From positions 22,697,789-22,761,788 of the forward strand of contig NC_037091.1 in assembly GCF_002994745.2 (NCBI RefSeq): DNA of 64,000 nucleotides. The letters are read 5' to 3'. The stretch is from Rosa chinensis (Eukaryota > Streptophyta > Magnoliopsida > Rosales > Rosaceae). Positions 5,793-48,075 of the stretch are shown here, piece by piece. The translations under genes were made by a program, and so were the position numbers. Every line of letters begins with the position of its first letter. Within the stretch, counting starts at the first letter, position 1. The notes under the pieces are model-generated. The model was not told the origin of the DNA, made no database searches, and worked only from the letters and a program-made list of their open reading frames with translations.

Positions 5793-5971
5793 AGTAGAAA
5801 AGAATACTTCAATTCAGGGTTAATTCGATGATTCTATTCATCCCACAATGAGGGTATATATACAAGTACAAAGGAGTAGTCTAACTCTAATAGGAAACAA
5901 TTTTTCCATAATTACAGGATATCCTAATTAAATAAAATCCTAATTACATACAGATTTACAGCGATTCTACA
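5793..5971 (-). repeat. Copia 3' LTR
   Basis: This 179-bp unit matches 20025-20202 almost base for base. Differences are one A/G (cccacaatgag versus cccacagtgag), one C/A (atatcctaatt versus atatcataatt) and one A indel in taaataaaatcc. It contains a TATA-like 'tatatatac' block. It lies downstream of pol in the minus-strand sense. Confidence 0.9.
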
Positions 5972-5980
5972 CTCCCCCTC
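5972..5980 (-). other. Copia polypurine tract
   Basis: On the minus strand this reads GAGGGGGAG directly before the LTR start TGTAGAATC, the position of a plus-strand primer. It overlaps the final TGA codon of pol (5979-5981). Confidence 0.85.
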
Positions 5981-6922
5981 AAGTTGGTGCATAGATGTCT
6001 ATCATGCCCAACTTGTTGACTGAGCTGTCAAATACCTTTCTGGACACTCATTTAGTAAGAACATCAGCTAATTGCTCATCTGAGTTTACAAATGGAAAGT
6101 GAATAACCTTTCTGTCAAGATTTTCTTTAATAAAATGACGGTTAACCTCCACATGCTTTGTTCTATCATGCTGAACTGGATTATGTGCGATCTCAATGGC
6201 AGCTGTATTATCACAATGCAAATCCATAGGCTTTTTAAGATTGTAACCTAGGTCTTTCAAGACATTACGAATCCACAACATTTCACAGACTCCGTGTGTC
6301 ATACCTCGGAACTCAGCTTCTGCACTTGATCTGGCAACAACTTTCTGCTTTTTACTACGCCAAGTGACAAGGTTCCCTCTAACAAAAGTGAAGTACCCAG
6401 ATGTAGAACGTCTGTCAGTTTTATCACTAGCCCAATCTGCATCTATGTATACAACAACTTCCAATTCATCTTTTTTCTGAAATAGTAACCCTTTACCTGG
6501 CGCCATCTTCAAGTACCTCAAAATATGAAAGACTGCATCCATACGCTCTTCACTAGGACAATGCATAAATTGACTAACAACACTCACAACATAAGCAATA
6601 TCAGGTCTAGTATGTGAAAGATAAATCAACCTTCCTACAAGACGTTAATACCTTCCTTTATCAGTTGGAACTTGACCAGGATAGATAGCAAGTCCGTGAT
6701 TCATCTCAATGGGTGTCTGGATGGGTTTGCAGTCCAGCATCCCCGTTTCAGCAAGTAAATCAAGAACATATTTCCTCTGTGAAAGTGAAATCCCCTTCTT
6801 AGACCTTGCAACTTCAATACTCAAAAAATACTTCAGTTGTCCCAGATCCTTCATTTCAAACTCCTTTGACAAATACTTTTGCAATTCATTTATCTCTTTC
6901 GGATCATCTCCTGTAACAATCA
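5979..6922 (-). pseudogene. Copia pol 3' part: end of reverse transcriptase and RNase H
   Basis: The minus-strand frame starts directly after the reverse transcriptase YVDDM motif (IVTGDDPKEINELQKYLSKE) and continues through LGQLKYFLSIEVARS, the linker LIYLSHTRPDIAYVVSVVS and RNase H (YIDADWASDKTDRRSTSGY, RSSAEAEFRGM, LHCDNTAAIEIAHN), ending IDIYAPT-stop. Two in-frame stops interrupt it: TAA near 6642-6644 where the family has Gln after KGRY, and TGA near 6045-6047 where the family has Trp after DVLTK. The upstream half of pol is at 17390 onward, separated by the gypsy insertion. It cannot make a working enzyme. Confidence 0.88.
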
Positions 6923-7227
6923 TGTGATGACCTGGTTTTCTGTTATTTAAATTTGGTATTTAATAATGGACCAGTTGTACGAATAATTGTTATCATGCTT
7001 TATTCGTAGATTTTTTTATGGAGTAGAATGATTTTCGTACGTATAATAATTGAATTTCACAGTTTAGGGGGTCGTGTGAAGTTTGATTTTTTATATGTTG
7101 GGATTCTCGGAAAATTTCCTTCACGAAAGTTGTAGAGCGCGTCGATACGAGTTCGTGGACAGGTGGAACGCGTAAATCGGAGTTCGTATGAGGAAGTTAT
7201 GGCTATGGAAAGAAGTTTCCATTTTAG

Positions 7228-7235
7228 TATATAAA
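7228..7235 (+). promoter_or_regulatory. LTR TATA box
   Basis: TATATAAA lies about 300 bp into the LTR, ahead of the CT-rich leader. The same motif is at 14884-14891 in the 3' LTR. Related LTRs have TATAAATA at the equivalent place (near 45719 on plus; near 36284 and 41574 on minus). It is the likely start signal for the genomic RNA. Confidence 0.7.
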
Positions 7236-8364
7236 GGGAAAATTAGAATTTTTATTTCATTATTTCCCTTTCCATTTCCGGAAACCATACCCTCTCTCTC
7301 TCTTCTCTCTCGTCCGCTCCCTCAGTATCGAAGATTTTCGACTGACCCGACCCGAACCCGGCCGATCCGACCCGACTTTTCCGGCCAACTGCGGCGGTCT
7401 CCGGCCTTGAAACTTGGTCAGCAGGGTCGCCTCTTCCGTCTGGTCGTCCCTCTGGTGGTCTCTATCGCCGATTCTTCTCCACGGCGGCGCTGCAAGGCGG
7501 TGCAGCCTTGTGTTTTCGGACCCGGTCGGAAAACACAGCTCCGACGTCGGCACGGCTTCGAGTTTTCTTGGTTGAGCTCAGAGCTGCCTCGCCGATCGAT
7601 CCTTTGTGGTTGTTTGGATCGATTCACGTGAAAATTCGATCAACTCGGATTGGATTACTGTTCACGGCTTGTGAGGTAGTTTTCGATCCCTTAAGCTTGT
7701 TTTCTGACTTCGATCCAGTTATGAAAGTTCACAAGCATGCTTAGATGAAGCTTTTTGATGTTGGGAGTTTTGTAAAATATTGAGTTTTGGACGGCGGCGG
7801 TGCGCCACCGTCTGTGGCGGCGTTCCGGCGGTGTTCTGGCCATGTATGGAACTGTTTCTGCTATTATATGTCTTCTACTCGTCGATACGAGCGTTTCGAT
7901 ATATAATATGCAAATTTTGGAGTTCGATTGGATTTGTTATGATTTTTGCAGTTTCATACCGATCAATTTATTTGATCCGTGAGGATTCGAGCGTCCGATC
8001 GATTTGTGGTTTGGTCACATCGATCGTGGACGTATTCCGAAGACTTTGGGAGGTCTCGGATGTGGTTTTGCCTCGATTGGCGCCACTTTGGGGATTTTAG
8101 TTCAAAAACAGGGGTTTCGAACTAAATCAAATGTGAATCATTACTAAGTTGGAACCATATGTGATTAGGTACTTGACGAAGTATTCAGACGAGTGGTTGG
8201 TGATAGTTTGGTTCGGTTCTGTATTGAAGACGCAGCAGGAGTTCGAGGTGAGTAAATCTCACAAGGACCTTTATGAACAGGAGTACCATTATTGTTTTGG
8301 CGTTAATTATTTAACTGCAAACTATAGTTGGTATTAGTAGGCATTCCTGAGTGAATGACTACAT

Positions 8365-9147
8365 ATATATGTTTAGATGAAATATATATATATATCCTTG
8401 TGAATGATTTTGATGAATAATAATATGCATGATGGTGTTCATATTATTGTTAAATGCGACTTTTCAAGAAACGATATTATAGAAAAAGATGTTTTCTATT
8501 GTTTGGAAAGTATTGAGCTTGATGTTACATTTTGAGTCAAGCGTGACTCATTTTAGATGTATTGGTTTTAGTATCAAGGGTCACAGATGGTGAGCAGGGA
8601 TTAGGAAAACCAAAACTAGATGTTGTACGTTCTTAAGTCAGATGCGACTTACTTAACGTTGATCTCAAGACCAGATAGGGTCGAGGAAGATCTTACGTCA
8701 CAGATGGTGATAGATCATAGATAGCAACAGGTTGCAGATGGTAACCTTGATGTTTGACTTCATGACCAGATGGGGTCTGAAGATCACGAGTCACAGATGG
8801 TGATAAATGGTTGAGATGAGACCAGATGGGGTCTAATGATTATAGGTCACAGATGGTGACAGGTTGCAGATGGCGACCTTGATGTTGATTTCCTGACTAG
8901 ACGGAGTCTGAAATCATATGTCTCAGATGGTGACAGATCACAGATGGTGATAGATCACAGATGGTGATCAAGGCAGGAAATAGGTAATCACGTTCTGGTT
9001 AGGACGAGTGATTACAATTTCAATAGGGTTCTAGTTTATCTGCCATGATAGCTTATGGGAGTAACAGTCGAGGTTGCTTGAGACTCATAGGTTCGCGGCT
9101 TAAAGGAGAGTTCAGATGGCATTCTTCTTTAATTGTCTAGATGAGAC
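8365..9147 (+). repeat. AGATG-loop hairpin array in the 5' LTR
   Basis: About fifteen short inverted repeats use the loop AGATG or a one-base variant. Examples: TAAGTC-AGATGC-GACTTA (8634-8651), AGGTTGC-AGATG-GTAACCT (8729-8747), AGGTTGC-AGATG-GCGACCT (8861-8879), GTCAC-AGATG-GTGAC (about 8846-8860), GACT-AGACGG-AGTC (about 8897-8910), GTCT-AGATG-AGAC (9135-9147). A long AT stem around AGATG lies at 8365-8389. Arms differ from unit to unit but stay paired, sometimes by G-T. An identical array is in the 3' LTR. Confidence 0.85.
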
Positions 9148-9738
9148 TTGAATTGCTACTTGATGGTTAAGTTAGCAAATAGGATATGGTCATAGCGGTG
9201 ACTCATGTTGTCCTTTCTGTGGAAAGGATATTGAATGTTAGAAGGATTCATGGCTGCATGTTTCCTTAAGTAGATTGATGTGAGTTGTTGATTGATGTTC
9301 ATGAGTTACTCATACGAGCTTGAAGAAGCTTACCGGGTTTGTTGTTTGGCAACCCCGGTGCACCATTCTTTTGGTGTAGGGGTTAATCCTGCAGGTCAGG
9401 AAAATCGTGGCTGAAGCAGAGGCAGCTTGTTGGCAGCTGAACGGGTAGGAAGCAAATTTTGTTGGCTTTGCCATTGTTATGACTTCCGCTATGTAGTAAG
9501 CTCTGAGGAGCATTTACGCTTTATTTTGTGATGACAATTTAATTCGTAAATTTGTATAATATATAACTCTGTGGAGCGAGTGTATGTTATCTTGGATGAT
9601 TCAGTGTATCAGTAAGTACTTGTTTTATGGGAAAGATGTTCCAGGTATTTGTATTGATGACTGAATATTCACGCATGTATAATTATGGGATTATATATAT
9701 CGATTTTTATTGTTGTAAAAATCAGGGGCGTGACAGAT

Positions 9739-9750
9739 TGGTATCAGAGC
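9739..9750 (+). other. Primer binding site (initiator tRNA-Met)
   Basis: TGGTATCAGAGC, three bases after the LTR, is complementary to the 3' end of plant initiator tRNA-Met. It primes minus-strand DNA synthesis. Confidence 0.93.
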
Positions 9751-10104
9751 GTAAGGTACATATTTGGTGACATAATCAATACTCCTCGAGTGATGGCCCG
9801 TCTGCAGCGGATCCCCATCATGTGCTCTTCGGTATTGATATAGTCATTGGATATGTAGTGAACGGTAGGATGTGAGTCGTCAAGGTAGTGTCGGCTCAGG
9901 GGATGAAGTGTAGGAGCTAGATGTAGCTTCTATGAGTTATAGACTTTTAAGGAATGATGACCTTTAGTCTAACTCAAGATTTACGTAGGGGATGGAATTG
10001 TATCCTTGACGTAGCATTGTGGTTGATTGAGTCATAGCGTTGACTTATACTTGTGTTTGAGAGTTATACATGTATTAACCACATGTTGTTATACTCCTTA
10101 GGTG

Positions 10105-13100
10105 ATGGACCCTCGAGGAGGCAGAGCTAGGGGTCGAGGTAGACCCAGAGGCAGAGGTAGAGCCCGAGGTAGAGGCGGGATTCCTCCTCCTGTTGAGGAG
10201 ATGTTTGAGAATGATGTGGAGGCATCAAATGTTGAGTTGCCTGTTCCACCTGTGGTGGAGGTTGCTAATGTTGTAGATCCTACTCGTTTGTCGAAGTTGG
10301 CAAAGGAGATTTCGAGATTGGGAGGAGTTCCATTTCAGGGAGGTACGGATCACATGTTGGCAGACCAATGGATTGAGAATATGAAGACCTACTTCGAGAT
10401 GGTCGTCTGTGACGACATTGAGAAGAGGAAGATTTCCACATTTATGCTCCAAGGCGATGCACGGGTGTGGTGGAATGGCACACAGAGGGTGATGGACGTG
10501 TCCACCATGACCTGGAATGAGTTTGTGGAACTGTTCAGGAAGAAGTACTTTCCGCCTTCAGTGAGGGAGCAGATGGAAAGGGAATTCATCTCGTTAGTCC
10601 AAGGGACTAAGAGTGTGAGGGAGTATGAAGCTGAGTTCTCAAGGTTGTATCGCTTTGTGAGGCAGATGGATGCTGAGAGCTTAGCTATGAAGTTTCAGTG
10701 GGGACTGAATGCTTCAATCCGGCGCGATGTCGCTGTTCTGGAACTGAAGACAGTGGAGCTCATTTTCGTTAAGGCTATGGCCATTGAGCAAGAGAACTTG
10801 ACTCTCCAAGAACACGAATCGGCTGAGAGGGATTTCCAAAGAAAGGGAAAGGCAACTGCGGGGAGCAGTAAGGCATCTGGGAATCGAGGTGGTTTCTGGA
10901 AAAGACAGAGGACTAATCAGCAGGCACCAGCTAGGGCTGCAGCTGCACCTGCTAGGGTTGCACCTAATAGGCCAGTGGCGAACCCGAAGTGTTTCAATTG
11001 CAATGAGATGGGCCATGTTGCTCGAGATTGCACGAAACCTAAGAACTTGGCATGCTTCACATGTGGCCAGACGGGGCACTTCTCAAGGGATTGTACCCAG
11101 CAGCGTAGGGGACAAGGAAATCAGCAGAGGCATCTACCTCCGGGAAATGCTAGGGTGTTTGCTATTGGTCAGCAGAATGCCGGAGTGGAAGGTACCTTAT
11201 CCTTATTTGATTTCTTTGCTAGGGTGTTATTTGATACGGGAGCGTCCCACTCTTTCATATCTAGTTCTGTGGTTGATATGTTAGGTTTAACTCCTAGGCC
11301 TCTTGCTAGATCCTTGTGTGTTATTTCCCCACTTGGTGTTTCCCTTGAGCTTGATAAGTTTTGTGATGCTTGTCCAATTGTGATTGGTGGTAAGGAGTTT
11401 ACCGCGGCCTTGATTGTATTAGCAGATCATAAGTATGATGTCATATTGGGTATTGATTGGCTGAGGCCAAACCATGCTATGATTGATTGCTTTGAAATGG
11501 TAGTATCATTTCATATACCTGGGCAGCCGGTGTTTCGTTATCGGTGTCTTAGGTCAGATACTGCTTTAAGGGCAGGATTCTTAGCTCATGTGGAGTCAAT
11601 GAGTTGTACTGCGGTTATGGCAGAGATTTCTGTGGTTTCCGAGTACAGTGATGTATTTCAGGAGATACCAGGATTACCTCCGAGGAGGGAAGTGGATTTT
11701 GCTATCGATGTGATACCAGGTACTGCACCTGTATCTATGGCACCATTTCGGATGGCACCAACTGAACTTAAGGAGTTGAAGGAGCAAATTGATGGTTTAC
11801 TTGAGCAAGGGTTCATTAGACCTAGTGCTTCTCCTTGGGGTGCACCTGTGGTGTTTGCGAAGAAGAAGGATGGTTCACTAAGGTTGTGTGTGGATTATCG
11901 GCAGTTGAACAAGGTGACGATTAAGAATAGGTACCCTTTACCTAGGATTGATGACTTGTTCGACCAGCTTAAGGAAGCTGCTGTATTCTCGAAGATCGAT
12001 TTGAGATCCGGATATCACCAGTTGAGGGTGAAAGATGATGATGTTCCTAAGACTGCTTTTAGGACTAGGTATGGACACTTTGAGTTTGTTGTCATGCCTT
12101 TTGGTTTAACCAATGCACCTGCAGCCTTTATGGACTTGATGAACCGTATGTTCAGTCCGTACTTGGATAAGTTTGTGGTAGTGTTCGTGGATGATATTTT
12201 GGTTTATTCCAAGACGTTGGAGGATCATGATCAACATCTGCGGATTGTGCTACAACTTTTGAGAGAAGAGAAGTTGTTTGCGAAATTCGAGAAGTGCGAA
12301 TTTTGGCAAAGGGAGATCAAGTTCCTTGGTCATGTGATTTCGAAGGATGGAATCTCTGTGGATCCTTCTAAGGTGGAAGCAGTGATGAACTGGGGCCAAC
12401 CCACTACAGTTACTGAGGTACGTAGTTTCCTGGGTTTGGCAGGTTATTATCGGAGATTCATTGAGGGATTTTCTAGTATTGCTTCGGCTTTGACCAAGTT
12501 GACAAGGAAGAATGTCCAGTTTGTGTGGACTGAGGAATGTGAACGAGCATTCAACGAGTTGAAGGCTAGATTGACCTCAGCCCCAGTGTTGACTATTCCC
12601 ACAAGCGGTGGCGGTTTAGTCATCTATAGTGATGCGTCTCATCAGGGTTTGGGATGTGTGTTGATGCAGCATGGCGGTGTTGTCGCTTATGGTTCTAGAC
12701 AGTTGAAGGTGCATGAGCGTAATTACCCCACTCATGATTTGGAGTTGGCTGCTGTTGTGTTTGCCTTGAAGATTTGGAGGCATTACTTGTATGGGGAGAA
12801 GTTCGAACTCTTTTCGGATCATAAGAGTTTGAAGTATCTGTTCTCTCAGAAGGAGTTGAACATGAGACAGAGAAGGTGGATGGAACTCATAAAGGATTAT
12901 GATTTTACTTTGGAGTATCATCCAGGAAAGGCCAATGTGGTGGCGGATGCTTTGAGTAGAAAGCCCGGAGGTATTGTTGCTTCTATTATGGTTCAGGAAT
13001 GGCTTATGTTGGAGACTGCATCTGAGTTTGACCTTGTACAAGCAAGAGTTGAGAATGGAAGTTTCCTTGGAAGTATCACGGTACAGCCTGCCCTGATTTC

Positions 13101-14578: not shown

Positions 14579-17389
14579 TGTGATGACCTGGTTTTCTGTT
14601 ATTTAAATTTGGTATTTAATAATGGACCAGTTGTACGAATAATTGTTATCATGCTTTATTCGTAGATTTTTTTATGGAGTAGAATGATTTTCGTACGTAT
14701 AATAATTGAATTTCACAGTTTAGGGGGTCGTGTGAAGTTTGATTTTTTATATGTTGGGATTCTCGGAAAATTTCCTTCACGAAAGTTGTAGAGCGCGTCG
14801 ATACGAGTTCGTGGACAGGTGGAACGCGTAAATCGGAGTTCGTATGAGGAAGTTATGGCTATGGAAAGAAGTTTCCATTTTAGTATATAAAGGGAAAATT
14901 AGAATTTTTATTTCATTATTTCCCTTTCCATTTCCGGAAACCATACCCTCTCTCTCTCTTCTCTCTCGTCCGCTCCCTCAGTATCGAAGATTTTCGACTG
15001 ACCCGACCCGAACCCGGCCGATCCGACCCGACTTTTCCGGCCAACTGCGGCGGTCTCCGGCCTTGAAACTTGGTCAGCAGGGTCGCCTCTTCCGTCTGGT
15101 CGTCCCTCTGGTGGTCTCTATCGCCGATTCTTCTCCACGGCGGCGCTGCAAGGCGGTGCAGCCTTGTGTTTTCGGACCCGGTCGGAAAACACAGCTCCGA
15201 CGTCGGCACGGCTTCGAGTTTTCTTGGTTGAGCTCAGAGCTGCCTCGCCGATCGATCCTTTGTGGTTGTTTGGATCGATTCACGTGAAAATTCGATCAAC
15301 TCGGATTGGATTACTGTTCACGGCTTGTGAGGTAGTTTTCGATCCCTTAAGCTTGTTTTCTGACTTCGATCCAGTTATGAAAGTTCACAAGCATGCTTAG
15401 ATGAAGCTTTTTGATGTTGGGAGTTTTGTAAAATATTGAGTTTTGGACGGCGGCGGTGCGCCACCGTCTGTGGCGGCGTTCCGGCGGTGTTCTGGCCATG
15501 TATGGAACTGTTTCTGCTATTATATGTCTTCTACTCGTCGATACGAGCGTTTCGATATATAATATGCAAATTTTGGAGTTCGATTGGATTTGTTATGATT
15601 TTTGCAGTTTCATACCGATCAATTTATTTGATCCGTGAGGATTCGAGCGTCCGATCGATTTGTGGTTTGGTCACATCGATCGTGGACGTATTCCGAAGAC
15701 TTTGGGAGGTCTCGGATGTGGTTTTGCCTCGATTGGCGCCACTTTGGGGATTTTAGTTCAAAAACAGGGGTTTCGAACTAAATCAAATGTGAATCATTAC
15801 TAAGTTGGAACCATATGTGATTAGGTACTTGACGAAGTATTCAGACGAGTGGTTGGTGATAGTTTGGTTCGGTTCTGTATTGAAGACGCAGCAGGAGTTC
15901 GAGGTGAGTAAATCTCACAAGGACCTTTATGAACAGGAGTACCATTATTGTTTTGGCGTTAATTATTTAACTGCAAACTATAGTTGGTATTAGTAGGCAT
16001 TCCTGAGTGAATGACTACATATATATGTTTAGATGAAATATATATATATCCTTGTGAATGATTTTGATGAATAATAATATGCATGATGGTGTTCATATTA
16101 TTGTTAAATGCGACTTTTCAAGAAACGATATTATAGAAAAAGATGTTTTCTATTGTTTGGAAAGTATTGAGCTTGATGTTACATTTTGAGTCAAGCGTGA
16201 CTCATTTTAGATGTATTGGTTTTAGTATCAAGGGTCACAGATGGTGAGCAGGGATTAGGAAAACCAAAACTAGATGTTGTACGTTCTTAAGTCAGATGCG
16301 ACTTACTTAACGTTGATCTCAAGACCAGATAGGGTCGAGGAAGATCTTACGTCACAGATGGTGATAGATCATAGATAGCAACAGGTTGCAGATGGTAACC
16401 TTGATGTTTGACTTCATGACCAGATGGGGTCTGAAGATCACGAGTCACAGATGGTGATAAATGGTTGAGATGAGACCAGATGGGGTCTAATGATTATAGG
16501 TCACAGATGGTGACAGGTTGCAGATGGCGACCTTGATGTTGATTTCCTGACTAGACGGAGTCTGAAATCATATGTCTCAGATGGTGACAGATCACAGATG
16601 GTGATAGATCACAGATGGTGATCAAGGCAGGAAATAGGTAATCACGTTCTGGTTAGGACGAGTGATTACAATTTCAATAGGGTTCTAGTTTATCTGCCAT
16701 GATAGCTTATGGGAGTAACAGTCGAGGTTGCTTGAGACTCATAGGTTCGCGGCTTAAAGGAGAGTTCAGATGGCATTCTTCTTTAATTGTCTAGATGAGA
16801 CTTGAATTGCTACTTGATGGTTAAGTTAGCAAATAGGATATGGTCATAGCGGTGACTCATGTTGTCCTTTCTGTGGAAAGGATATTGAATGTTAGAAGGA
16901 TTCATGGCTGCATGTTTCCTTAAGTAGATTGATGTGAGTTGTTGATTGATGTTCATGAGTTACTCATACGAGCTTGAAGAAGCTTACCGGGTTTGTTGTT
17001 TGGCAACCCCGGTGCACCATTCTTTTGGTGTAGGGGTTAATCCTGCAGGTCAGGAAAATCGTGGCTGAAGCAGAGGCAGCTTGTTGGCAGCTGAACGGGT
17101 AGGAAGCAAATTTTGTTGGCTTTGCCATTGTTATGACTTCCGCTATGTAGTAAGCTCTGAGGAGCATTTACGCTTTATTTTGTGATGACAATTTAATTCG
17201 TAAATTTGTATAATATATAACTCTGTGGAGCGAGTGTATGTTATCTTGGATGATTCAGTGTATCAGTAAGTACTTGTTTTATGGGAAAGATGTTCCAGGT
17301 ATTTGTATTGATGACTGAATATTCACGCATGTATAATTATGGGATTATATATATCGATTTTTATTGTTGTAAAAATCAGGGGCGTGACA
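14579..17389 (+). repeat. Gypsy 3' LTR (2811 bp)
   Basis: By eye it matches the 5' LTR throughout apart from a two-base difference in an (AT)n run. It carries the same TATA box (14884-14891), donor-like site and hairpin array (about 16021-16801). It is followed by the target duplication AATCA. Confidence 0.95.
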
Positions 17390-20024: not shown

Positions 20025-20202
20025 AGTAGAAAAGAATACTTCAATTCAGGGTTAATTCGATGATTCTATTCATCCCACAGTGAGGGTATATATACAAGTA
20101 CAAAGGAGTAGTCTAACTCTAATAGGAAACAATTTTTCCATAATTACAGGATATCATAATTAAATAAATCCTAATTACATACAGATTTACAGCGATTCTA
20201 CA
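20025..20202 (-). repeat. Copia 5' LTR
   Basis: This is the partner of 5793-5971. In minus-strand sense it starts TGTAGAATCG and ends TTCTACT next to the primer site. Its 178-bp length is at the short end for copia elements. Confidence 0.9.
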
Positions 20203-20347
20203 CAAGTCTTGTTGGATCTAGAAACAAAGCAATAGTATTACAGCTAGAATTTCACAAAATTACATTTCTAAAAGCGATATATATATATATATATATATAT
20301 TCCAAGAATTATAATTGTACTGTATCTTTTAAGCAATGAATATACTT
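20203..20347. other. Flanking DNA with (AT)n microsatellite
   Basis: Contains an (AT)n run near 20277-20300 and the 17-bp target site AAGCAATGAATATACTT (20331-20347) of the LINE-like insertion that follows. Confidence 0.6.
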
Positions 20348-31891: not shown

Positions 31892-32329
31892 TGTCACGCC
31901 CCTGATTTTACATACAAGAAAATCGATATATATAATCTCATAATTATATGTGCGTGAACGTTCAGTCATCAATACAAAATACTTGGAATCTTTTTCCCTT
32001 TAAACTAAGTACATACTGATGCCCTGAACCCTCAAAGTTAATATACACTCACTCCATAGAGTTATATATTACACAAACTTACGAATTAAATTGTCAACAA
32101 CTAGATAAAACGTAAATGCTCCTTAGAGCTCACTACAACGGAAGTCCAAATAACAGTAAAGTCACAAAATTTGCTTCCTACCGTTTAGCTGCAAGTATGC
32201 AACCCCAACTTCAGCCACCATTTTCCTGACCTGCAGGATTAACCCCTACACCGTTTGAATGGTGCACCGGGTTGCCACACAACAAACCCGGTAAGTTTTT
32301 GCAAGCCCGTATGAGTAATTCAAACCACA

Positions 32330-32690
32330 TACAACTCACACCAATCACAAGAATAACTCACACGAATCACAAGAATAGCTCACACGAATCACGAGAATAA
32401 CTCACACGAATCACGAGAATAACTCACACAAATCACGTTTAAATCAATAAACAAAGCACGAGATAAACTCACTCAAATCACGAGATAAACTCACACGTTT
32501 AAATCAATAAACAAAGCACGAGATAAACTCACTCAAATCACGAGATAAACTCACACGTTTAAATCAATAAACAAAGCACGAGATAAACTCACACAAATCA
32601 CGTTTAAATCAATAAACAAAGCACGGGATAAACTCACTCAAATCACGAGATAAACTCACACGTTTAAATCAATAAACAAACGCGGCGGAC
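32330..32690 (-). repeat. Tandem 'cacgagataaactcac / gtttaaatcaataaac' array
   Basis: Alternating units contain GAG-(5 nt)-CTC and GTTTA-AATCAA-TAAAC inverted repeats. A variant GGG-ATAAA-CTC near 32626 pairs with one G-T. A matching array lies at 39730-40070 in the other LTR and at 43310-43540 in the solo LTR. Confidence 0.75.
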
Positions 32691-33137
32691 AGACTAGAGC
32701 TCTAACTGATCGTATTCACTAACCCGGCCAAAGGTGTGAAGTCCCGATTTTCCCACCCACGATCCTGAACTCGTAAGTCTTTGGACCCGCGGTATAAATA
32801 CCAAAACATTAAAGGAGTCATAGTGGACCCAAAATGTTGCACGAATCTAAAATGAAAGATTCCCCGTAATTGATCCCTATCAATTACTCCCGGTAAAAAC
32901 CCATATTTAAATAAACCACCCGCGAACTAAAATGTTCCTCAAATACACAAATCTCAATGCTTTTCAAAACAAAACAAAATTAACATTTCCGCAATCATTT
33001 GTTTTCCAAAAGCCACAACCCAAACAATAAAAAGCATCATTTCATGCATATTGTTTCAAAATCCACAAACCACCAAAACATATATATTTCACGTAAATAT
33101 ATATATATATATATATATACGTAGTCATCCGCTCAGG

Positions 33138-35167
33138 TAATACGCTCCAAAGCAAGCGTATAATTTAACCCTAAAAATATCATTAGTAGTATAAGCAAGT
33201 AGGGATCGTTCTATTCCGGGGATTGAGGGTACACCTGTCATTGTCAAACAAATAAACAATTAAAATTAAAACAAAGTATAATATTTACAAAGATATTTAC
33301 AAGTACACACAAATTTACGAAATTAAGGGGGGTGTTTTGGTTTAAGTTTCCGAAAATTAACTAAGTGAAGAAACAAAATAAAGAAAATGTATAAACACAA
33401 ATACAAGAATGGAACAAATGAAACAAAGATCAAAACCAAATTCATAATCAAATTCGACTCAACCCTATTATTATTCATCTTAAGTCATGAGAAAGAGTTG
33501 ATCATGTGAAATATTCAAAGCAAATAATTTACCATATTTTACTTTCCAATGCTAATTAACCTAAGTGAAAGCACAAAGATTAATCCTATCAAACATGCAT
33601 TCAAGTTCTAGAAAGCTAGGCAATCATAACATGTTAGATGCATGAAGAACATATAGAAAGGCTATCAACTCAAGTGTACAACTTAGTATGAAAAAGTCCA
33701 TCTAATTGCAATCCTTTTCAATTAAATTCGGTTTTTGTCCAAAACCTTTGCTACTTTTGATTCAAGTTCACAAAACAATAAGTTGAATCATGTTCTTAAA
33801 TCTAGCAACAATTATGCATAAACCCTATATGTTTCGAACCACATAAGAAAAATACATAAAAGATTTCAATCAAACAAATTTAATTAAACAATCTCACAAA
33901 AGCAACCAAGAATCACAATATAGGAATCTGAAATTTATTCAATCATAAAAATCTGGAATTAAACTTTATTCAAACATTAAGGTTAACTAGAACATAATCA
34001 ACGAATTCAAGCAAGGAAAACCAAAAGAGGTTACAAGGTCAAAGGTCGAATTACACCGTGAATGGAGATGGTGATGAAGAATTTGGACGTTGAACTTGAA
34101 CTTTGAAAGCAAACCTTCAAGCTTCATGGCTCCAAGGTGGGGGGTGGAGGGATGCTCACGGCTTCTTCTTCCTTCTTCCTTGCCTTGCTTGAAACGCCAA
34201 AGATGAACTAGAGAATGGAGATACTAGACGTTAACTATGTGATTTTCTGAAAATTGTGTAGTGTGGAACCTCCTTTAACTTCAAATATGAAGGAGTATAT
34301 ACAGGGGCACGGCTAGGGTTCTCCAAGCAATCAGAAATTTCCACATCACTTCAACCAATGGTATGATGCCAAGTAAGCCTTGTGATGTGGTCCAACCAAT
34401 CGTAGAATGCCAAGTAAGCCTTGGTGTGTCATCCAACCAATCAAAACTCTCCAAATTAATTCCCTAAATTCCTTTAATATATCCTTGCCAAAATTGTATA
34501 AGGATTTTCTGATTTTCTTCATGAATTTCGGCCAACATTCCTTTAGGGAATTTAGGGATGCACCTAGACACGTTTTGAGCTTTTTCTTGGTGTCCACATA
34601 TCTTCTTTCCTTAAAAATCTCCCTATTTCTTCTCCTTGAGTCATCTCCTTGATTTCCCTTTGATTTTCACGTTGGTCTCTCTCTCTTTCTCTTAGCAATC
34701 ACACAATTAACTCTTCCAAGAATATTTCCTTCCATAAAATTCTCCCTTGAATTACTCCAATCAAAATTTTCAATTATATTTCAGATTTTCATGTTGGCAC
34801 CTCCTTTTCCTCTAAGTAATTCACGGCAAATTAAATCCCCAAGGAAAATATATTTTCCCTTAAAGCTCTCCCTTGATTTCCTCTTCTTGGTTGACGCAAA
34901 AGTCTCTTTTTGGCAGGGTTTCCTCTTCTGGACAGGATTTCCTGGTTGAAACAGGAAAACTTTATTTCTTCATTTCTGCTCATTTTTGCAGTCCTTGAGC
35001 TCCTTCAAGCTAGTTAGCTCCAAGGACCTGAAAATAGAAACTATTACTAAATATGGAAACTTTCTAAAAATAGTAACTTTTCGAAACAAGAAAGATTTAT
35101 TTAAGGAAATAACTAAGTAAATATGAGGAAATAACACTTAAAACATCGCATTAAAATGCTCCTATCA
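33138..35167. mobile_element. 2.03-kb insertion with TCAGG target duplication, probably a solo LTR
   Basis: It is absent from the sister LTR (compare 40490), and TCAGG is duplicated at 33133-33137 and 35168-35172. In minus sense it starts TGATAGGAGCATTTTAATGC and ends GCTTTGGAGCGTATTA. AT-rich, with a CT-rich middle (34680-34900) and no convincing frame (the 83-codon frame at 34346-34597 is unrecognised). A motif near 33192-33212 (agtataagcaagtagggatc) recurs near 63808-63832. The family is not identified. Confidence 0.7.
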
Positions 35168-36578
35168 TCAGGAATGCCTACTAATACCAACTATAGTTTG
35201 CAGTTAACTAAATAACTCTCAAAACGATAAAGGTAAGCCCGTTCGTGAATGAACTTCGTGAGATTACTCACCTCGAAACTCCTGCTGCGTCTTCAATACA
35301 GAACAATGCTTCCAACCCACAAAATAGCCGTCCAAATACTTCGTCAAGTACCTAATCACAATCGGTTTCCACTTAGTAATAATTCACAAACGATTTAAGT
35401 CCGAAACCCCTATTTTGAACTAAAATCCCCAAAGTGCGCCAATCGAGGCAAAACCACATCCGAGACCTCCCAAAGTCTCCGGAATACGTCCAAGATCGAT
35501 GTGACCAAACCACAAGTCGATCGGATGCTCGAATCCTCACGGATATACTAAATCGATTGGTGTGAAACTGCAAAAATCATAACAATTCCATACCAACTCC
35601 AAAATTTGTATATTATATATCGAAACGCTCGTATTACTGAGTAGAACATATATAATACCAAAAACAGTTCCTTAAGTGGCCGGAACCCCGCCTGTGGTGG
35701 TGGCGCACCGCCGCCGGCCAAAACTCAATATTTCACAAAACTCCCAACATCAAAGTTCCTCATCTAAGTATGCTTGTGAACTTTCCTAACTAGCTCGAAG
35801 TCAGAAAACAAGCATAAGGGGTCGAAAACTACCTCACAAGCCGTGAACAGTAATCCAATCCGAGTTTATCAAAGTTTCACGTGAATCGACCCAAACAACC
35901 ACCAAAGATCGATTAAGGAGGCTGCTCTGAGCTCAACCAAGAAGACTTGAAGCCTTGCCGACGTCGGAACAAGGATTTTCCACCGGGTCCGAAATCCACA
36001 AACTGTACCGCCTTGCAGCGCCGCCGTGGAGGAGAATCGGTGCTAGAGGACACCAGAGGGACGACCAGACGGAGGAGACAATCCTATCTGGAAAGTTTCG
36101 TCGCCGGAGACCGCCGCAGTTCGCCGGAAAAGTCGGGTCGGATCGACTGGGTCTGGGTCGGGTCAGCCGGATATCTTCGATTATGAAGGTAGCAGCCGAG
36201 AGAGAAGAGAGAGAAAGGAATGGTTTCCGGAAAAGGAAATAATGAAAATAGTAAGTTTCTCATTCGGGAAACTTCTATTTATACCAAAATGAAAATTCCT
36301 TCCAATGGCCATAACTTTCTCATACGAACTCGGATTCTCGCGTTCCACATGTCCACGAACTCGTATCGACGCACTCTACAATTTTTGTGAATGAAGTTTT
36401 TGGAGAATCCCAACGAATAAAAAGTCAACCTTTGCTCCGCCCCTAAAGTCACACTTTCCGAATAGAAATTCGTCCGAAACACTCCCGCTCCATCCACGAG
36501 CCACGAAACCGTCCAATAAACATAAAATTAATTCAGGAAAATTCTCGGAAAATAAATATGAATTTCCGGGGCATCACA

Positions 36579-36590
36579 TTCCACCACCCT
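36579..36590 (-). other. Polypurine tract of the non-autonomous element
   Basis: Minus strand AGGGTGGTGGAA directly before the 3' LTR. Confidence 0.7.
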
Positions 36591-37560
36591 TAAAGAAATT
36601 TCGTCCTGAAATTTAAACGTACCACACCAACAAGTACGGATAAACTCATCCCCACATCCAATTCTCATTCCTCAACAACTTGTTCTCACCTCGCTGTACA
36701 ATACCCTAGCTCAATAATGGATACAGGTACCCTACCTAGTATCACAACACTAGGAATCTTTACCACACCGCTCGGTGGTAACCCAATCATTTCATGGATC
36801 TCATCCTCGTATACTATCCAACAAAGACTCTGTGACTGCAGCACTACACACAGATCACACAAGAGTCCAGAATCCTGTTATCACAACAGTATCTGCATCA
36901 TATCACCAATAATGCAAACCTTGCATTACAAGAATTGAAAATGAAACCTTCATTTCAACTCACCTCGAACCTATGCATCACAACTTAATAAGTGTCTACC
37001 CAACCTGAGAACACAAAATCAAGCTAAGGTCTGGCCCCGCATGACCTGCACACACATCATCACCTGTCATTGAAATCAAAATCAAAGTGGCCTCTACTAC
37101 CACAACAATGAAGGATGCTTCACACCACAAACCACACTCAAAGTCTAACTTTAGACAACAGGGAAAACCCAACACAACACAACACATGGAAAGAAGTACA
37201 CAACTATCACACATTATTCTAGCACACAAGCAGAATTAGATAAGGTACCTTCTTATCCTCACACACATCAGCTTGAGGAAACCATGCAACCATGATTCCT
37301 TTTAACATTCCATATCCTTTCCACCGAAAGGACAACATAAATCACCACTGTGACAATGTTCTATTTGCTAACTTAACCATCAAGAAGCAATTCAAGTCTT
37401 ATCTAGACAATAAAGGAAGAATACTCTCGGAAGTCTCCTATAATTACATACTTATGAGTCTCCAGCAACCTCGACCGTTACTCCCATAAACTATCATGGC
37501 AGACAGACAAGAACTCTGACTGACATCGTAACCACTCGTCCGGCCAAGGACGTGATTTCT
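36591..37560 (-). other. Internal region, noncoding, part homologous to a gypsy LTR
   Basis: 37270-37560 on the minus strand matches about 8990-9275 of the autonomous LTR (landmarks: aatcacgtccttggccggac, tatcatggcagacaga, tggttaagttagcaaatag). The part from 36591 to 37250 has no match that I can see and no supported gene. Confidence 0.6.
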
Positions 37561-37565
37561 GATAA

Positions 37566-38503
37566 CATGCCTTTGTCACCATTTGTGACCATCTGTGATT
37601 CAATCTCGATCACCATCTGAGATCAGTCACCGTCTATGACTCGATATATCACCATCTGTGATCAGTCACCATATGTGACTCAATATATCACCATCTGTGA
37701 TCAGTCACCATCTGTGATCAGTGACCATCTGTGACTCAATATATCATCATCTGTGATCAGTCATCATCTGTGACTCAATATATCACCATTTGTGATCAGT
37801 CACCATCTGTGACTCAATATATCACCATCTGTGATCAGTCACCGTCTGTGACTCAATATATCACCATCTGTGATCAGTCACCCTCTGTGACTCAATATCG
37901 ATCACCATCTGTGATCAGTCACCATATGTGACTCAATATCGATCACCATCTGTGATCAGTCACCATCTGTGACTCAATATATCACCATCTGTGATCAGTC
38001 ACCATATGTGACTCAATATATCACCATCTGTGATCAGTCACCATCTGTGACCCAATATCGATCACCATCTGTGATCAGTCACCGTTTGTGACCCAATATC
38101 GATCACCATCTGTGATCAGTCACCGTCTGTGACCCAATATCGATCACCATCTGTGATCAGTCACCATCTGTGACTCAATATATCACCATCTGTGATCAGT
38201 CACCATCTGTGATCAGTCACCATCTGTGACTTAATATCGATCACCATCTGTGATCAGTCACCATATGTGACTCAATATATCACCATCTATGATCAGTCAC
38301 CATCTGTGACTCAATATCGATCACCATCTGTGATCAGTCACCATCTGTGACTCAATATCGATCACCATCTATGATCAGTCACCATATGTGACTCAATATA
38401 TCACCATCTATGATCAGTCACCATCTGTGACTCAATATCGATCACCATCTGTGATCAGTCACCATATGTGACTCAATATATCACCATCTGTGATCAGTCA
38501 CCT
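37566..38503 (-). repeat. Large AGATG-loop hairpin array
   Basis: About 45 units of tcaccatctgtga alternate between two forms. On the minus strand they are AGTCAC-AGATG-GTGACT and TGATCAC-AGATG-GTGATCG/A, in a higher-order period of roughly 38 bp. It is an expanded version of the array at 8580-8970 and lies in the internal region, not in the LTRs, of this element. Confidence 0.85.
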
Positions 38504-39279
38504 CAACCTAGACATGATATACACATAGCTCACACCTACGGCCATCAATTCCATAATCTTCCATATCGTGCCTACATAAGTCAACTGGTGACTACAACCT
38601 CATGCTTAGATTCTCAACTAGCGTTCCATTTCACAAATTCAATCAAACAAGACTTCCTCAAGAAATGTTTGATGCCATTCTAACGCCCTACGGCGAATCC
38701 CAAACCACGCTCATTCCCTCCCCACTAGGAGCCTTTGTCATCAACATGACATCAAAGGTGAAAACAATGAATCACCTTTCTATCCTCACACAGAGCAAAA
38801 TCGTCACCACTATGGTCTTCAAGATAAATCAAGCCAACAATCAATCAAATCAAGAAGAAAACAAGGCGATCACAATTTAAAACAAGCAAAACAATTCATA
38901 GTAACCCCTGCATATAATTTAGTTCAGGAGGTCACATTAAGTCAAACAACATGACTTCAACAATCTAACAACTAAGCTCGTATGAAAGGATACAGTTTTC
39001 TCCGAAAACAATCCTTATCACCCCACCAGAGTTCAATCCAGAGGTTCCCATTCCTCAAATGACTGCAACTCAAAGAACCAACACCTAGGTTCACAACTTC
39101 ACCAACAGAGCAAACCAATGCTCTGACAATTCTACACTCTAACTCACAACTAGCACTCCTACATACCCAGTGATTATATCAATACTGAAGAGCATCAGAT
39201 GGGGATCCGCTGCAGACGGGCCATCACTCGGGTAGTACTGATTATCACCAAATATGTACTTTACGCTCTGATACCAAAC
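38504..39279 (-). other. Internal leader of the non-autonomous element
   Basis: 39164-39279 matches the leader next to the primer site of the autonomous element (ccatcactcgggtagtactgatt / aatcaatactcctcgagtgatgg types). The primer site is at 39265-39276. No gag start is present in 38504-39163. Confidence 0.65.
39265..39276 (-). other. Primer binding site (initiator tRNA-Met)
   Basis: Minus strand TGGTATCAGAGC, three bases from the 5' LTR, the same spacing as at 9739-9750. Confidence 0.9.
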
Positions 39280-41906
39280 TGTCACGCCCCTGATTTTACA
39301 CACAAGAAAATCGATATATATATAATCCCATAATTATACATGCGTGAACGTTCAGTCATCAATACAAAATACCTGGAATCTTTTTCCCTTTAAATTAAGT
39401 ACATACTGATGCCCTGAACCCTCAAACTTAATATACACTCGCTCCAAAGAGTTATATATTACACAAACTTACGAATTAAATTGTCAACAACTAGATAAAA
39501 CATAAATGGTCCTCAGAGCTCACTACAACGGAAGTCCAAATAATGGTAAAGTCACAAAATTTGCTTCCTACCGTTTAGCTGCAAGTATGCAACCCCAACT
39601 TCAGCCACAATTTTCCTGACCTGCAGGATTAACCCCTACACCGTTTGAATGGTGCACCGGGTTGCCACACAACAAACCGGGTGAGCTTTTGTAAGCCCGT
39701 AAGAGTAACTCAAACCACACACAACTCACACCAATCACGAGAATAACTCACACGAATCACAAGAATAACTCACATGAATCACGAGAATAACTCACACAAA
39801 TCACGTTTAAATCAATAAACAAAGCACGAGATAAACTCACTCAAATCACGAGATAAACTCACATGTTTAAATCAATAAACAAAGCACGAGATAAACTCAC
39901 TCAAATCACGAGATAATCTCACATGTTTAAAACAATAAACAAAGCACGAGATAAACTCACTCAAATCATGAGATAAACTCACACGTTTAAATCAATAAAC
40001 AAAGCACGAGATAAACTCACTCAAATCACGAGATAAACTCACACGTTTAAATCAATAAACAAACGCGACGGACAGACTAGAGCTCTAACTGATCGTATTC
40101 ACTAACCCGGCCAAAGGCGTGAAGTCCCGATTTTCCCACCCACGATCCTCAACTCGTAAGTCTTTAGACCCGCGGTATAAATACCAAAACATTAAAGGAG
40201 TCACAGTGGACCCAAAATGTTACACGAATCTAAAATGAAAGATTCCCCGTAATTGATCCCTATCAATTACTCCCGGTAAAACCCCATATTTAAATAAACC
40301 ACCCACGAACTAAAATGTTCCTCAAATACACAAATCTCAACGCTTTTCAAAACAAAACGAAATTAACATTTCCACAATCATTTGTTTTCCAAATGATAAA
40401 AAGCATTATTTTATGCATATTGTTTCAAAATCCACAAACCACCAAAACATATATATTTCACGTAAATATATATATACGTAGTCATCCGCTCAGGAATGGC
40501 TACTAATACCAACTATTGTTTGCAGTTAACTAAATAACTCTCAAAACGATAAAGGTAAGCCCGTTCGTGAATGAACTTCATGAGATTACTCACCTCGAAA
40601 CTCCTGCTGCGTCTTCAATACAGAACAATGCTGCCAACCCACAAAATAGCCGTCCAAATACTTCGTCAAGTACCTAATCACAATCGTTTCCACTTAGTAA
40701 TAATTCACAAACGATTTAAGTCCAAAACCCCTGTTTTGAACTAAAATCCCCAAAGTGGCGCCAATCGAGGCAAAACCACATCCGAGACCTCCCAAAGTCT
40801 CCGGAATACGTCCACGATCGATGTGACCAAACCACAAGTCGATCGGACGCTCAAATCCTCACGGATCGAATAAATGGATCGGTATGAAACTGCAAAAATC
40901 ATAACAATTCCATACGAACTCCAAAATTTGCATATTATATATCGAAACGCTCGTATTACCTAGTAGAACATATATAATACCAAAAACAGTTCCTTAAGTG
41001 GCCGGAACACCGGCGCCAAAACTCAATATTTCACAAAACTCCCAACATCAAAGTTCCTCATCTAAGCATGCTTGTGAACTTTCCTAACTAGCTCGAAGTC
41101 AGAAAACAAGCATAAGGGGTCGAAAACTACCTCACAAGCCGTGAACAGTAATCAAATCCGAGTTGATCAAAGTTTCACGTGAATCGACCCAAACAACCAC
41201 CAAAGATCGATTAAGGAGGCTGCTCTGAGCTCAACCAAGAAGACTTGAAGCCTTGCCGACGTCGGAACAAGGATTTCCGACCGGGTTTGAAATCCACAAA
41301 CTGTACCACCTTGCAGCGCCGCCGTGGAGGAGAATCGGTGCTAGAGGACACCAGAGGGACGACCAGACGGAGGAGACGATCCTATCTAGAAAGTTTCATC
41401 GCCGGAGACCGCCGCAGTTCGCAGGAAAATTTGGGTCGGATCGACCGGGTCCGGGTCGGGTCAGCCGGATATCTTCGATTCTGAAGGTAGCAGCCGAGAG
41501 AGAAGAGAGAGAAAGGAATAGTTTCCGGAAAAGGAAATAATGAAAATAGTAAGTTTCTCCTTCGGGAAACTTCTATTTATACCAAAATGGAAATTCCTTC
41601 CAATGGCCATAACTTTCTCATACGAACTCCGATTCTTGCGTTCCACATGTCCACGAACTCGTATCGACGCGCTCTACAACTTTCACGAAGGAAGTTTTTA
41701 GAGAATCCCAACGAATAAAAAGTCAACCTTTGCGCCACCCCTAAAGTCACACTTCCGAATAGAAATTCGTCCAAAACATTTCCGCTCCGAATAGAAATTC
41801 GTCCAAAAAATTTCCGCTCCATCCACGAGCCACGAAACTATCCAAACCATAATTTAGATTCCGGAAAATCCTCGCAAAATAAATACGAATTTCCGGGGCA
41901 TCACAA
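39280..41906 (-). repeat. 5' LTR of the non-autonomous element (2627 bp)
   Basis: Partner of 31892-36578. It carries the tandem array (39730-40070), a donor-like site near 40600, a shortened leader (bases missing near 41005) and a TATA box near 41574 on the minus strand. An 18-bp-scale duplication near 41755-41815 (ccgaatagaaattcgtccaaaa twice) is specific to this copy. Confidence 0.9.
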
Positions 41907-45424: not shown

Positions 45425-48075
45425 TGTGATGCCTCGGAAATTCGTAATTATTTTTCGAGGATTTTCCGGAATCTAATTTTTGGTTGTTGGATGGTTTCGT
45501 GGCTCGTGCATGGAGTGGAAGTGTTTCGGATGAATTTTTATTCGGAAAGTGTGACTTTAGGAGGTTTGCAAAGGTTGAATTTTGAAGCGTTGGGATTCTC
45601 TGAAAACTTCCTTCACGAAAGTTGTAGAGCGCGTCGATACGAGTTCGTGGACATGTGGAACGCGAGAATCGGAGCTCGTATGAGAAAGTTATGAGAGTTT
45701 GAAGTTTTGGGAAAGTTCTATAAATAGGAGTTTCCATTTTCGGAAACTTACTATTTCCATTTTTGCATTTTCCTTTTCCGGAAACCAGAAACGCTCCGTT
45801 CTCTCTCTTCACCCGTGCTCGACCCGACCGGAACCCGGTGATCCGACCCGGCTTTTCCGGCGAGCTCCGGCCATCTCCGGCGACGAAACTTTCCAGATAG
45901 GATCGTCTCCTCCGTCTGGTCGTCCCTCTGGTGTTCTCTAGCGCCGATTCTCCTCCACGGCGGCGCTGCAAGGCGGTGCAGGTTGGTGTTTTCGGACCCG
46001 GTCGGAAATCCTTGTTCCGACGTCGGCAAGGCTTCAAGTCTTCTTGGTTGAGCTCAGAGCGGCGTCGTTGATCGATCCTTGGTGGTTGTTTGGATCGATT
46101 CATGTGAAACTTCGATCAACTCAGTTGGGATTACTGTTCACAGCTTGTGAGGTAGTTTTCGATCCCTTAGGCTTGTTTTCTGACTTCAATCCAGTTATGA
46201 GAATTCACAAGCATGCTTAGATGAAGCTTTTTGATGTTGGGAGTTTTGTGAAATAATGAGTTTTTGGCCGGCGGCGGTGCACCACCGTCTGTGGCGGTGT
46301 TCCGGCCACTTAAGGAACTGTTTTTGGTATTATATATGTTCTACTCGTTGATACGAGCGTTTCGATATATAATATGCAAATTTTGGAGTTCGTATGGAAT
46401 TGTTATGATTTTTGCCGTTTCATATTGGTGAATTTATTCGATCCGTGAGGATTTGAGCGTCCGATCGACTTGTGGTTTGGTCACATCGATCGTGAGCGTA
46501 TTCCGGAGACTTTGGGAGGTCTCGGATGTGGTTTTGCCTCGATTGGCGCCACTTTGGGGATTTTAGTTCAAAACAGGGGTTTCGGACTTAAACTGGATGT
46601 GAATCGTTGCTGATTTAAGATCATTGGTGATTAGGTGCTTCTAAAGGTGAATTGGACGAGTTGTTGCTGATAGTGTCAGTTCGGTTCTGTATAGAAGACG
46701 CAGCGGGATTCTGAGGTGAGTAATCTCACGAAGTTCATATCACGAACGGGTTCACCATACTGTTTTGAGAGTTATTTAGTTAACTGCAAACTATAGATGG
46801 TATTAGTGGCTTTTCTGAGTAGATGACTATGTGTGTGTATATATATATTATGGGATGTATATATATACATACGTATTCATGTATTAGTAGATATATATTT
46901 ACATGAAATATATATGTTTTGGTGGTTTGTGGATTTGTGAAACAATATGCATGAAATGATGCTTTTATTGTTTGGGTTGTGGCTTTTGGAAAACAAATGG
47001 TGGGAAATGGTATTTCTATTGTTTTGAAAAGTGTTTGAGGATTTGAGAGTCACAGGTTGTGATTTCTCCTTTTGGGTTGATTTAACGTTTTGATCTGAGG
47101 GTCAGGTTGGCCTAAGGATCCGGGGTTGCAGGTTGCATCCTCAGGCAGCATATATCGTAAGGTTGAACCTTGGCCGAGGTGACAGGTTACGATATATTCA
47201 GTTAGAGCTCTAGTCTGTCTGCCATCGTACTTCAGGGATTTAAGTAGGTTACTTAAGACTCCTGGGTACATATTTTGTCCAGGTTGGGCCTAGTTGCAAT
47301 TTTGTCCAGGTTGGACCAAATTATTGTTTTATCCAGGTTGGATCGATTTATCATATTCTACTTGTTAGGTTAACAATAGGTATGATTTATTTGTGTTGAT
47401 GCTTTGTCCAGGTTGGACCTATTTGCTGTTTTGTCCAGGTTGGACCTAATTATTGTTTTATCCAGGTTGGATCGATTTATCATATTTGAATTGTTAGGTT
47501 AACGATTTATATGATTTTGTCACGGTGTGACTTTCGTTGTTTCTTAAAAAAAAAAAAATATAGTTTTGGAAGCATGGTATGTTTTCTTTAATTGCGAGTT
47601 GAAAGGTTTTCCTCATTTTGGCGTGAGTTGTGCATGTGTGGTTTGAGTTACTCATACGGGCTTGCAAAAGCTTACCGGGTTTGTTGTGTGGCAACCCGGT
47701 ACACTATTCAAACAGTGTAGGGGTTAATCCTGCAGGTTAGGATAATCGGGACTGAAGCTGAGGTAGCGCCTTCGTAGCTTTACGGTAGGAAGCCATCTTT
47801 GTGACTTTACCTTTGACAAGGACTTCCGTTGTATAGTTACTCTGATCAGCATTTACGTTTTATTTTGTTGTTGACAATTTAATTTGTAAGCTTATGTAAT
47901 ATATGACTCTATGGAGCGGGTCAATATTGAGATAGTTGGTTCAGGGTGTCAATATATACTTGGGTTAAAAGGGAAAAAGTTTCTAGGTATTTTGTATTGA
48001 TGGCTGAACGTTCACGCATATGTAATTATGGGATTATATATCGATTTTCATATGTGTAAAATCAGGGGCGTGACA
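45425..48075 (+). mobile_element. Solo LTR, plus orientation (2651 bp)
   Basis: Starts TGTGATGCCTCGG and ends GGGGCGTGACA, with a perfect target duplication GATAG (45420-45424 and 48076-48080). It contains TATAAATA near 45719, the conserved GC-rich leader (45850-46200), a donor-like GAG|GTGAGTAA near 46713, and its own hairpin array with AGGTT loops (47049-47531). No primer site follows, so only the LTR is left. Confidence 0.92.
47049..47531 (+). repeat. AGGTT-loop hairpin array
   Basis: Units share the loop AGGTT with different arms: GTCAC/GTGAT (47049-47063), TTAAGT/ACTTAA (47240-47256), GTCC/GGGC (about 47277), GTCC/GGAC (47406-47418 and 47433-47445), ATCC/GGAT (about 47331 and 47460), TTGTT/AACAA (47362-47376) and ATTGTT/AACGAT (47490-47506, one G-T pair). 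The array ends with GTCAC-GGT-GTGAC (47519-47531). Confidence 0.85.

Follow-up and report, generated by a model that had tools for sequence, protein, structure and literature searches.

Retroviral leaders contain a few distinct hairpins. In the portions of PMC7599994 and PMC8096270 considered here, the psi and nucleocapsid-binding loops are leader hairpins with exposed guanosines around the splice donor, and Gag includes a nucleocapsid whose zinc knuckles bind the exposed guanosines of GGAG and GGUG loops (PMC7599994); in HIV-1, the same portion of that source reports, replacement of the GGAG loop had no significant effect on packaging. Dispersed packaging signals of RNA viruses, among them MS2, consist of many stem-loops with varied stems and a short shared motif that is read by the coat protein (PMC6281560, in part). 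In barley, BARE1 and BARE2 pair a plant LTR element with a parasitic partner that is packaged in trans, with separate RNA pools for translation and replication; BARE2 makes no Gag, and its RNA is packaged into particles (PMC3735527, in part). Retand and other Ty3/gypsy elements carry family-specific tandem repeats in their non-coding parts (PMC11963269, in part). Little seems to be known of how plant LTR retrotransposons single out their own RNA when they package it, and the phrase "packaging signal" is absent from the main text of a life-cycle review of these elements from December 2025 (PMC12786077).

Here we describe hairpin arrays in 64,000 nucleotides of Rosa chinensis DNA (the whole stretch analysed, hereafter the window) and in related copies elsewhere in the genome. 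Similar to retroviral psi, they would be leader hairpins with guanosines in the loop next to a candidate splice donor, in an element whose Gag has zinc knuckles, but they repeat one loop on about 10 to 50 hairpins. Similar to the dispersed viral signals, they combine many stem-loops and varied stems with a short shared motif, whereas the rose stem-loops are clustered in a putative LTR leader, similar stems bear a different loop in related lineages, and the system is known here from sequence alone. The barley pair, in contrast, belongs to the Copia superfamily, and neither "hairpin" nor "stem-loop" occurs in the main text of PMC3735527; the Retand-type repeats lie between pol and the 3′ LTR, and "hairpin" is absent from the main text of PMC11963269. 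Such arrays were not described in the titles and abstract beginnings that our literature search covered, in which subscription papers were mostly outside coverage and broader searches were covered in part. RNA viruses are already known to have packaging signals that share a recognition motif (PMC6281560, in part), but a loop that is lineage-specific across a whole array on similar stems, together with amplified arrays in a coding-empty partner, was not found in that search. We read the array as a cis-acting RNA signal whose constant loop would be recognized by a protein acting in trans, the likeliest candidate being the Gag nucleocapsid of the element itself during packaging, and give this reading a probability of about one half.

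The AGATG array and the element that carries it

Element 1 is an intact Ty3/gypsy LTR retrotransposon, with an LTR pair, a short target duplication, a primer-binding site and the order gag-PR-RT-RH-IN (Table 1). Its two LTRs (LTR1) are 99.89% identical, in keeping with an earlier note on this DNA that had placed the array in a young LTR. We take the primer-binding site to be of the initiator tRNA-Met type. A Pfam scan of the gag-pol frame gave two CCHC stretches in Gag. The Tekay/Del chromovirus lineage is recognized by a chromodomain at the integrase end; because the same scan gave no chromodomain family at E 0.001, we withhold a chromovirus lineage name. A piece of the RT found no relative among viral contigs, and at least 120 stretches of these contigs contain GTCACAGATGGTGAC, with more than one match in none of the 80 listed. 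Rfam gave no match up to E 1 for positions 6900-10200. Around element 1 stand two 180-bp direct repeats (5793-5972 and 20025-20203), 98% identical and 14.2 kb apart, possibly the LTRs of an older element that element 1 entered. Further along the window, a frame of 850 codons at 54816-57368 with Transposase_21, DUF4218 and Transpos_assoc presumably encodes a CACTA-type transposase.

Table 1 Features of the window (splice junctions are marked ^)
Feature	Position	Strand	Remarks
5′ LTR of element 1	6923..9735	+	termini TGTGATGACC...GTGACA; target-site duplicate AATCA at 6918-6922
Putative TATA box TATATAAAG	7228..7236	+	motif only
Putative 5′ splice site GAG^GTGAGTAA	8245..8255	+	found in LTR1, A, B, C, D and also L162
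AGATG-loop hairpin array, 5′ LTR	8365..9147	+	
Covarying hairpin, LTR1 / LARD interior / A / B / D	8984..9015	+	just after array
Putative 3′ splice site TTAATCCTGCAG^GT	9383..9396	+	found in LTR1, A, B, C, D
Primer-binding site TGGTATCAGAGC of element 1	9739..9750	+	
AGATG-loop hairpin, primer-binding site to gag	9909..9934	+	core GGAGCT-AGATGT-AGCTTC
gag-pol open frame, 1480 codons	10102..14544	+	Gag with zinc knuckles, protease, RT, RNase H, integrase
3′ LTR of element 1	14579..17389	+	AATCA at 17390-17394
Same AGATG array, 3′ LTR	16019..16799	+	
LARD, non-autonomous	31892..41905	-	LTRs 41905-39280 and 36578-31892 (type A/B); target-site duplicate AATAT; primer-binding site
Two GGT-triloop hairpins, LARD interior	36909..36956	-	8 and 9 pairs; after AGATG array
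Expanded array, LARD interior	37576..38502	-	47 AGATG or near-variant loops, 34 AGATG
Solo LTR D	45425..48075	+	GATAG at both sides
GGT-triloop hairpin array of solo LTR D	47004..47611	+	

The hairpins of the array, their coordinates and the sister pair at 8729-8747 and 8861-8879 all match the earlier description. Between 8250 and 9390 there are 22 loops of the types AGATG, AGACG and AGATA, 16 of them on a stem of at least four pairs, Watson-Crick or G-U, when the loop may have 5 or 6 nt. The earlier description needs one correction, in that five units (TAAGTC/GACTTA, three GACC/GGTC and GACT/AGTC) need a 6-nt loop, AGATGG or similar. In predicted ensembles, a probability above 0.5 was reached by 10/16, 4/11 and 29/42 hairpins.

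AGATG is the top constant loop of LTR1, with 11 of its 19 occurrences on stems of at least four pairs, whereas the best 5-mer in 300 dinucleotide shuffles had a mean count of 1.65 and a maximum of 3; sequences of the same composition, which the earlier note had named as a possible source of such stems, fail to reproduce them. Outside the arrays, AGATG stands on a Watson-Crick stem of at least four pairs in 7 of 120 cases within the window, and of these seven, five belong to element 1, where they are found in the LTRs or between the primer-binding site and gag, and one is on the sense strand of the related LTR D. When right arms were exchanged between the LTR1 hairpins, with the loop length re-optimised each time, the 75 Watson-Crick pairs out of 95 dropped to 44.6 on average, and none of 5000 exchanges reached 75; in solo LTR D, too, the observed pairing was never reached in 5000 trials. 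The array is thus real, and repeating a single unit does not account for it.

The array is flanked by the putative donor and acceptor of Table 1, and these motifs suggest a leader intron that would contain it. With a putative TATA box at 7228, and TATAAA(T/A)A at a comparable place in LTRs A, B and D, the array would be transcribed and, as it lies inside the putative leader intron, would be carried by unspliced RNA alone. Few invariant stretches near the end of the LTR are as long as the acceptor block, and the genome contains 1248 exact matches to the 23-nt motif around the putative acceptor but 0 to its reversed control. A hairpin just before the acceptor was considered as covariation evidence (C-G, U-G, U-A) and rejected, 202 of 500 shuffles doing equally well. 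The diverged L162 retains the donor; its acceptor has other bases, TTTTTGTGCAG^GT, yet ends in GCAG^GT. In this related LTR (L162:2461-3985; G000:C2:47070301-47080300), a 49-nt unit able to fold into a long hairpin, ATACAATT...AATTGTAT with the loop TGTGAG, is present about five times between the same donor and the altered acceptor.

The main rival explanation is that a host factor reads the constant-loop RNA hairpins, in retention or export of unspliced RNA, in splicing control of the leader intron or in translation control. The arrays lie between donor and acceptor motifs that are kept in five window LTRs, L162 keeps CAG^GT in an altered acceptor, and all the evidence at the RNA level fits a host factor equally well. 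However, a conserved host factor leaves the loop differences between families of one genome unexplained and offers no reason why a coding-empty element should have the largest arrays seen, outside its LTR. We consider this explanation somewhat unlikely.

Loop types in related LTR families

The array of solo LTR D has the triloop GGT in place of AGATG, with 13 of 34 GGT on Watson-Crick stems of at least four pairs and 8 distinct stems. GGT was the top triloop in all 12 family D copies (D, L169 and L175-L184), on 7 to 10 distinct stems with runners-up on at most 2, and the aligned loops of the family were GGT in 181 of 192 cases, different in 6 and gaps in 5. A third loop, GGG, was seen in one LTR, L196, on 6 distinct stems (shuffled maximum 2). 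AGATG itself is borderline in L198, a relative of LTR1, where it stands on 3 stems with a shuffled maximum of 3. Stem-loops with a shared loop motif above chance, as in the dispersed packaging signals, were found in LTR1, D and L196. L196 and L198 came from seven LTRs that were read by their acceptor motif, from listed places all on C1; no constant loop exceeded the shuffles in five of these seven, three of which (L193-L195) have no donor in the stretch. In families A, B and C the units are repeated but represent few stem types; in L174, which has the donor and a diverged LTR, any constant loop stands on at most 2 stems; and L171-L173, L165, L167 and L168 gave no donor, acceptor or related-LTR match. 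LTR C (42860-44951, minus strand) is an apparent solo LTR with CAAAC/CAAAT at its sides; its stems changed from GAG/CTC to GGG/CCC and from GTTTA/TAAAC to GTTTC/GAAAC, with the loops TTTAT and TTGATT.

Each loop type is nearly exclusive to its own region. On stems of at least four Watson-Crick pairs, a second family D copy had GGT in 21/42 occurrences and L196 had GGG in 10/55, against 0/8, 0/93 and 0/68 for AGATG, GGT and GGG in gag-pol, and 0/22, 0/302 and 0/213 on both strands of a 12 kb control.

Some hairpins appear to have kept the stem while the loop was replaced. One takes the forms ATAGAAAA-AGATG-TTTTCTAT in LTR1 and GTGGAAAA-AGATG-TTTTCTAT in L198, GGGAAAT-GGT-ATTTCTAT in D and GTGGGAATT-GGG-AATTTCTAT in L196, while B has GTTA and L197 has GTTG, and a similar flank follows in all six; judged by position and flanks, homology of this set is clear. 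For the others, judged by their stems, homology is less sure. The stem GTCAC/GTGAC bears AGATG, GGT or GGG, as does GACC/GGTC (GGT in L169). The sister unit AGGTTGC-AGATG-GTAACCT is similar to GGGGTTGCA-GGT-TGCATCCTC and GGGGTTGCT-GGG-AGTAACCTC, and GTCCA-GGT-TGGAC is similar to GTCCT-GGG-AGGAC, with the closing pair changed on both sides. The AT-rich first hairpin departs from the family loop, with ACATG in D and ACGTG in L198.

Pairing changes, strand and level of selection

Among LTR1 copies, found by a search of the 515 Mb genome, 40 of 806 candidates were scored and gave 28 distinct arrays, both window LTRs included (21 distinct among 30 copies in an earlier subset). Counts leave out the AT-only hairpin at 8375, where there are gaps, and the tree was built from non-stem sites. 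On this tree of the 28 distinct copies, changes starting from a pair comprised 15 single and 3 double changes to another pair, 2 to A-C and 5 to other mismatches. Stem-keeping changes, on which the earlier note had staked its reading, are the more frequent (18 of 25 inferred changes, or 14 kept against 9 broken by variant type), and 4 further stem changes restored a pair. For example, 8636/8649 went from A-T to G-T, and 9113/9119 occurs as C-G and T-A, plus T-G and one C-A. In the constant-loop and terminal stems, pairs that are Watson-Crick in the window copy gave G-U and A-C in a ratio of 8:3, which is not significant. Variable sites made up 23/234 of the stems, 13/90 of the loops and 63/429 of the linkers in the 28 copies; loops are no better conserved than linkers within the young LTR1 family, which counts against strict selection on the loop. 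Variant types in family D comprised 9 changes of a Watson-Crick pair to G-U, 2 other and 7 double kept, 4 A-C, 4 other mismatch and 6 double mismatch, weak evidence in that the diverged row L176 (82%) supplies 6/7 of the double kept, 6/6 of the double mismatch and 3/4 of the other mismatch types.

A strand difference was seen when variant types were counted at those predicted local pairs for which the window copy has a Watson-Crick pair. At a 40-nt span, G-U and A-C stood at 17:8 in sense and 11:13 in antisense, and just 3′ of the array at 7:2 and 2:7. This sense-only excess of G-U is weaker with wider pairing spans (19:12 and 14:17 at 60 nt, 21:14 and 15:17 at 100 nt), and because the strands share helices, the sense and antisense counts are not independent tests. 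For LTRs A and B of LARD, changed pairs in sense were 11 kept, 4 A-C and 4 other, against 5, 6 and 3 in antisense; gaps removed a further 37 and 48. The hairpin just after the array (Table 1) is paired in 46/50 cells across five related sequences; in four of its ten pairs both partners changed, and G-U forms occur in between, and pairing drops to 26-44% when the partners are slid.

The earlier note had argued from G-T pairing to selection on RNA. Selection at the RNA level is supported, by the pair-keeping changes among copies, the sense excess of G-U, the covarying hairpin and the loop swap between families. The argument itself did not hold, as background hairpins of the same zones give G-U:A-C ratios of the same order as the window copy, and G-U pairs in that copy were rejected as proof. 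Folding energy was likewise rejected, the z-scores (sense/antisense) not being sense-specific: -4.8/-4.4 for LTR1, -3.8/-8.4 for D, -2.7/-5.2 for B, -3.3/-7.2 for C and -1.0/-1.7 for the LARD array.

Antisense z-scores that are similar or stronger, together with the symmetry of the arms, would suit palindromes at the DNA level that either bind a dimeric protein or act on chromatin. A DNA site, however, should keep its arms and free its spacer; in these hairpins it is the arms that vary and the centre that stays the same, and the G-U excess is found in sense only, so that we consider this explanation quite improbable. A mutation process is also improbable, though a little less so. Template switching or snap-back in reverse transcription, the alternative named in the earlier note, would correct arms to perfect inverted repeats without selection, and it would agree with stems that are mostly Watson-Crick (216 pairs, against 22 G-U and 9 A-C, in the constant-loop stems of six arrays) and with double changes such as C-G to T-A, which occur among the copies. 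We disfavour it, since one loop across the array on unrelated stems is left unexplained; nor does it predict a different constant loop in related families or the strand difference of G-U and A-C.

The coding-empty partner and a proposed role in packaging

A further AGATG array of the window lies in an element that has the features of a LARD: LTRs, a target duplication, a primer-binding site, a polypurine tract and no coding capacity. In its 2.7 kb interior the longest sense stop-to-stop frame has 79 codons, and antisense frames were screened at 150 codons; the first 120 nt are 89% and the last 34 nt 85% identical to element 1. Loops other than AGATG make up 13 of the 47 in its array. All eight further LARD copies (L185-L192) have AGATG arrays, with 12 to 58 AGATG per fetched stretch, of which 5 to 53 stand on stems of at least four Watson-Crick pairs. 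Interior sequence follows the array in 8/8 copies and precedes it in 6/8, the stretches of L186 and L190 starting inside the array. The wide differences in array length between these copies may make it a fast-evolving marker. The position of the array, in the LTR of element 1 but in the interior of LARD, suggests a requirement for it in the RNA rather than at one set place in the promoter.

The tandem repetition of the LARD array, with a period of about 39-41 bp, would agree with neutral minisatellite growth from one inverted repeat, as would the variation in AGATG number between copies and the sister units of LTR1. Such growth is nevertheless very improbable, given the distinct 4-nt stems with the same loop (five in LTR1, seven to ten in family D copies) and arms that match their own partner far better than others.

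We now return to the proposed packaging role. The sense transcript would present one loop, AGAUG, on a series of short hairpins whose stems are free to vary while they pair. A constant loop on free stems argues for a reader of the loop, and different loops in related lineages argue for a reader that differs between lineages. Such a trans-acting protein would recognize the loop in its hairpin setting, and many copies would be needed. Lineages may have replaced the loop throughout the array (AGAUG, GGU, GGG) while the stems stayed similar, as would be expected if the reading protein changed its specificity; guanosines are present in all three loops. The reader would most likely be the Gag nucleocapsid, selecting unspliced genomic RNA for packaging, and since the array lies between the putative donor and gag, spliced gag mRNA would lack it. 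A coding-empty partner with the largest arrays seen here would also fit packaging. Against this reading count the background level of G-U in the window copy, the folding z-scores, loop sites as variable as linkers among LTR1 copies, the variant loops of the LARD array, the hairpins of lower ensemble probability, the five of seven sampled LTRs in which no constant loop exceeded the shuffles, the few stem types of families A, B and C and the departing AT-rich first hairpin. For transcription, splicing, protein binding and packaging of the array RNA alike, we infer the step from patterns in the DNA.

A tentative extension, less likely than not, is that the arrays serve as a password by which retrotransposons tell self from non-self: an array of hairpins with a lineage-specific loop would mark the genomic RNA, that loop would change together over the array with similar stems retained, Gag would co-evolve to read it, and coding-empty parasites would forge and amplify the password of their host. 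The LARD, with its AGAUG array and two GGU hairpins, looks as if made for entering two kinds of particle. With three natural loops on similar stems in one genome, packaging specificity becomes a simple question of binding, and this specificity may be linked to parasitism by non-autonomous elements. Finally, LTR A of the LARD carries an insert of about 2 kb (33137-35168) that is absent from LTR B.
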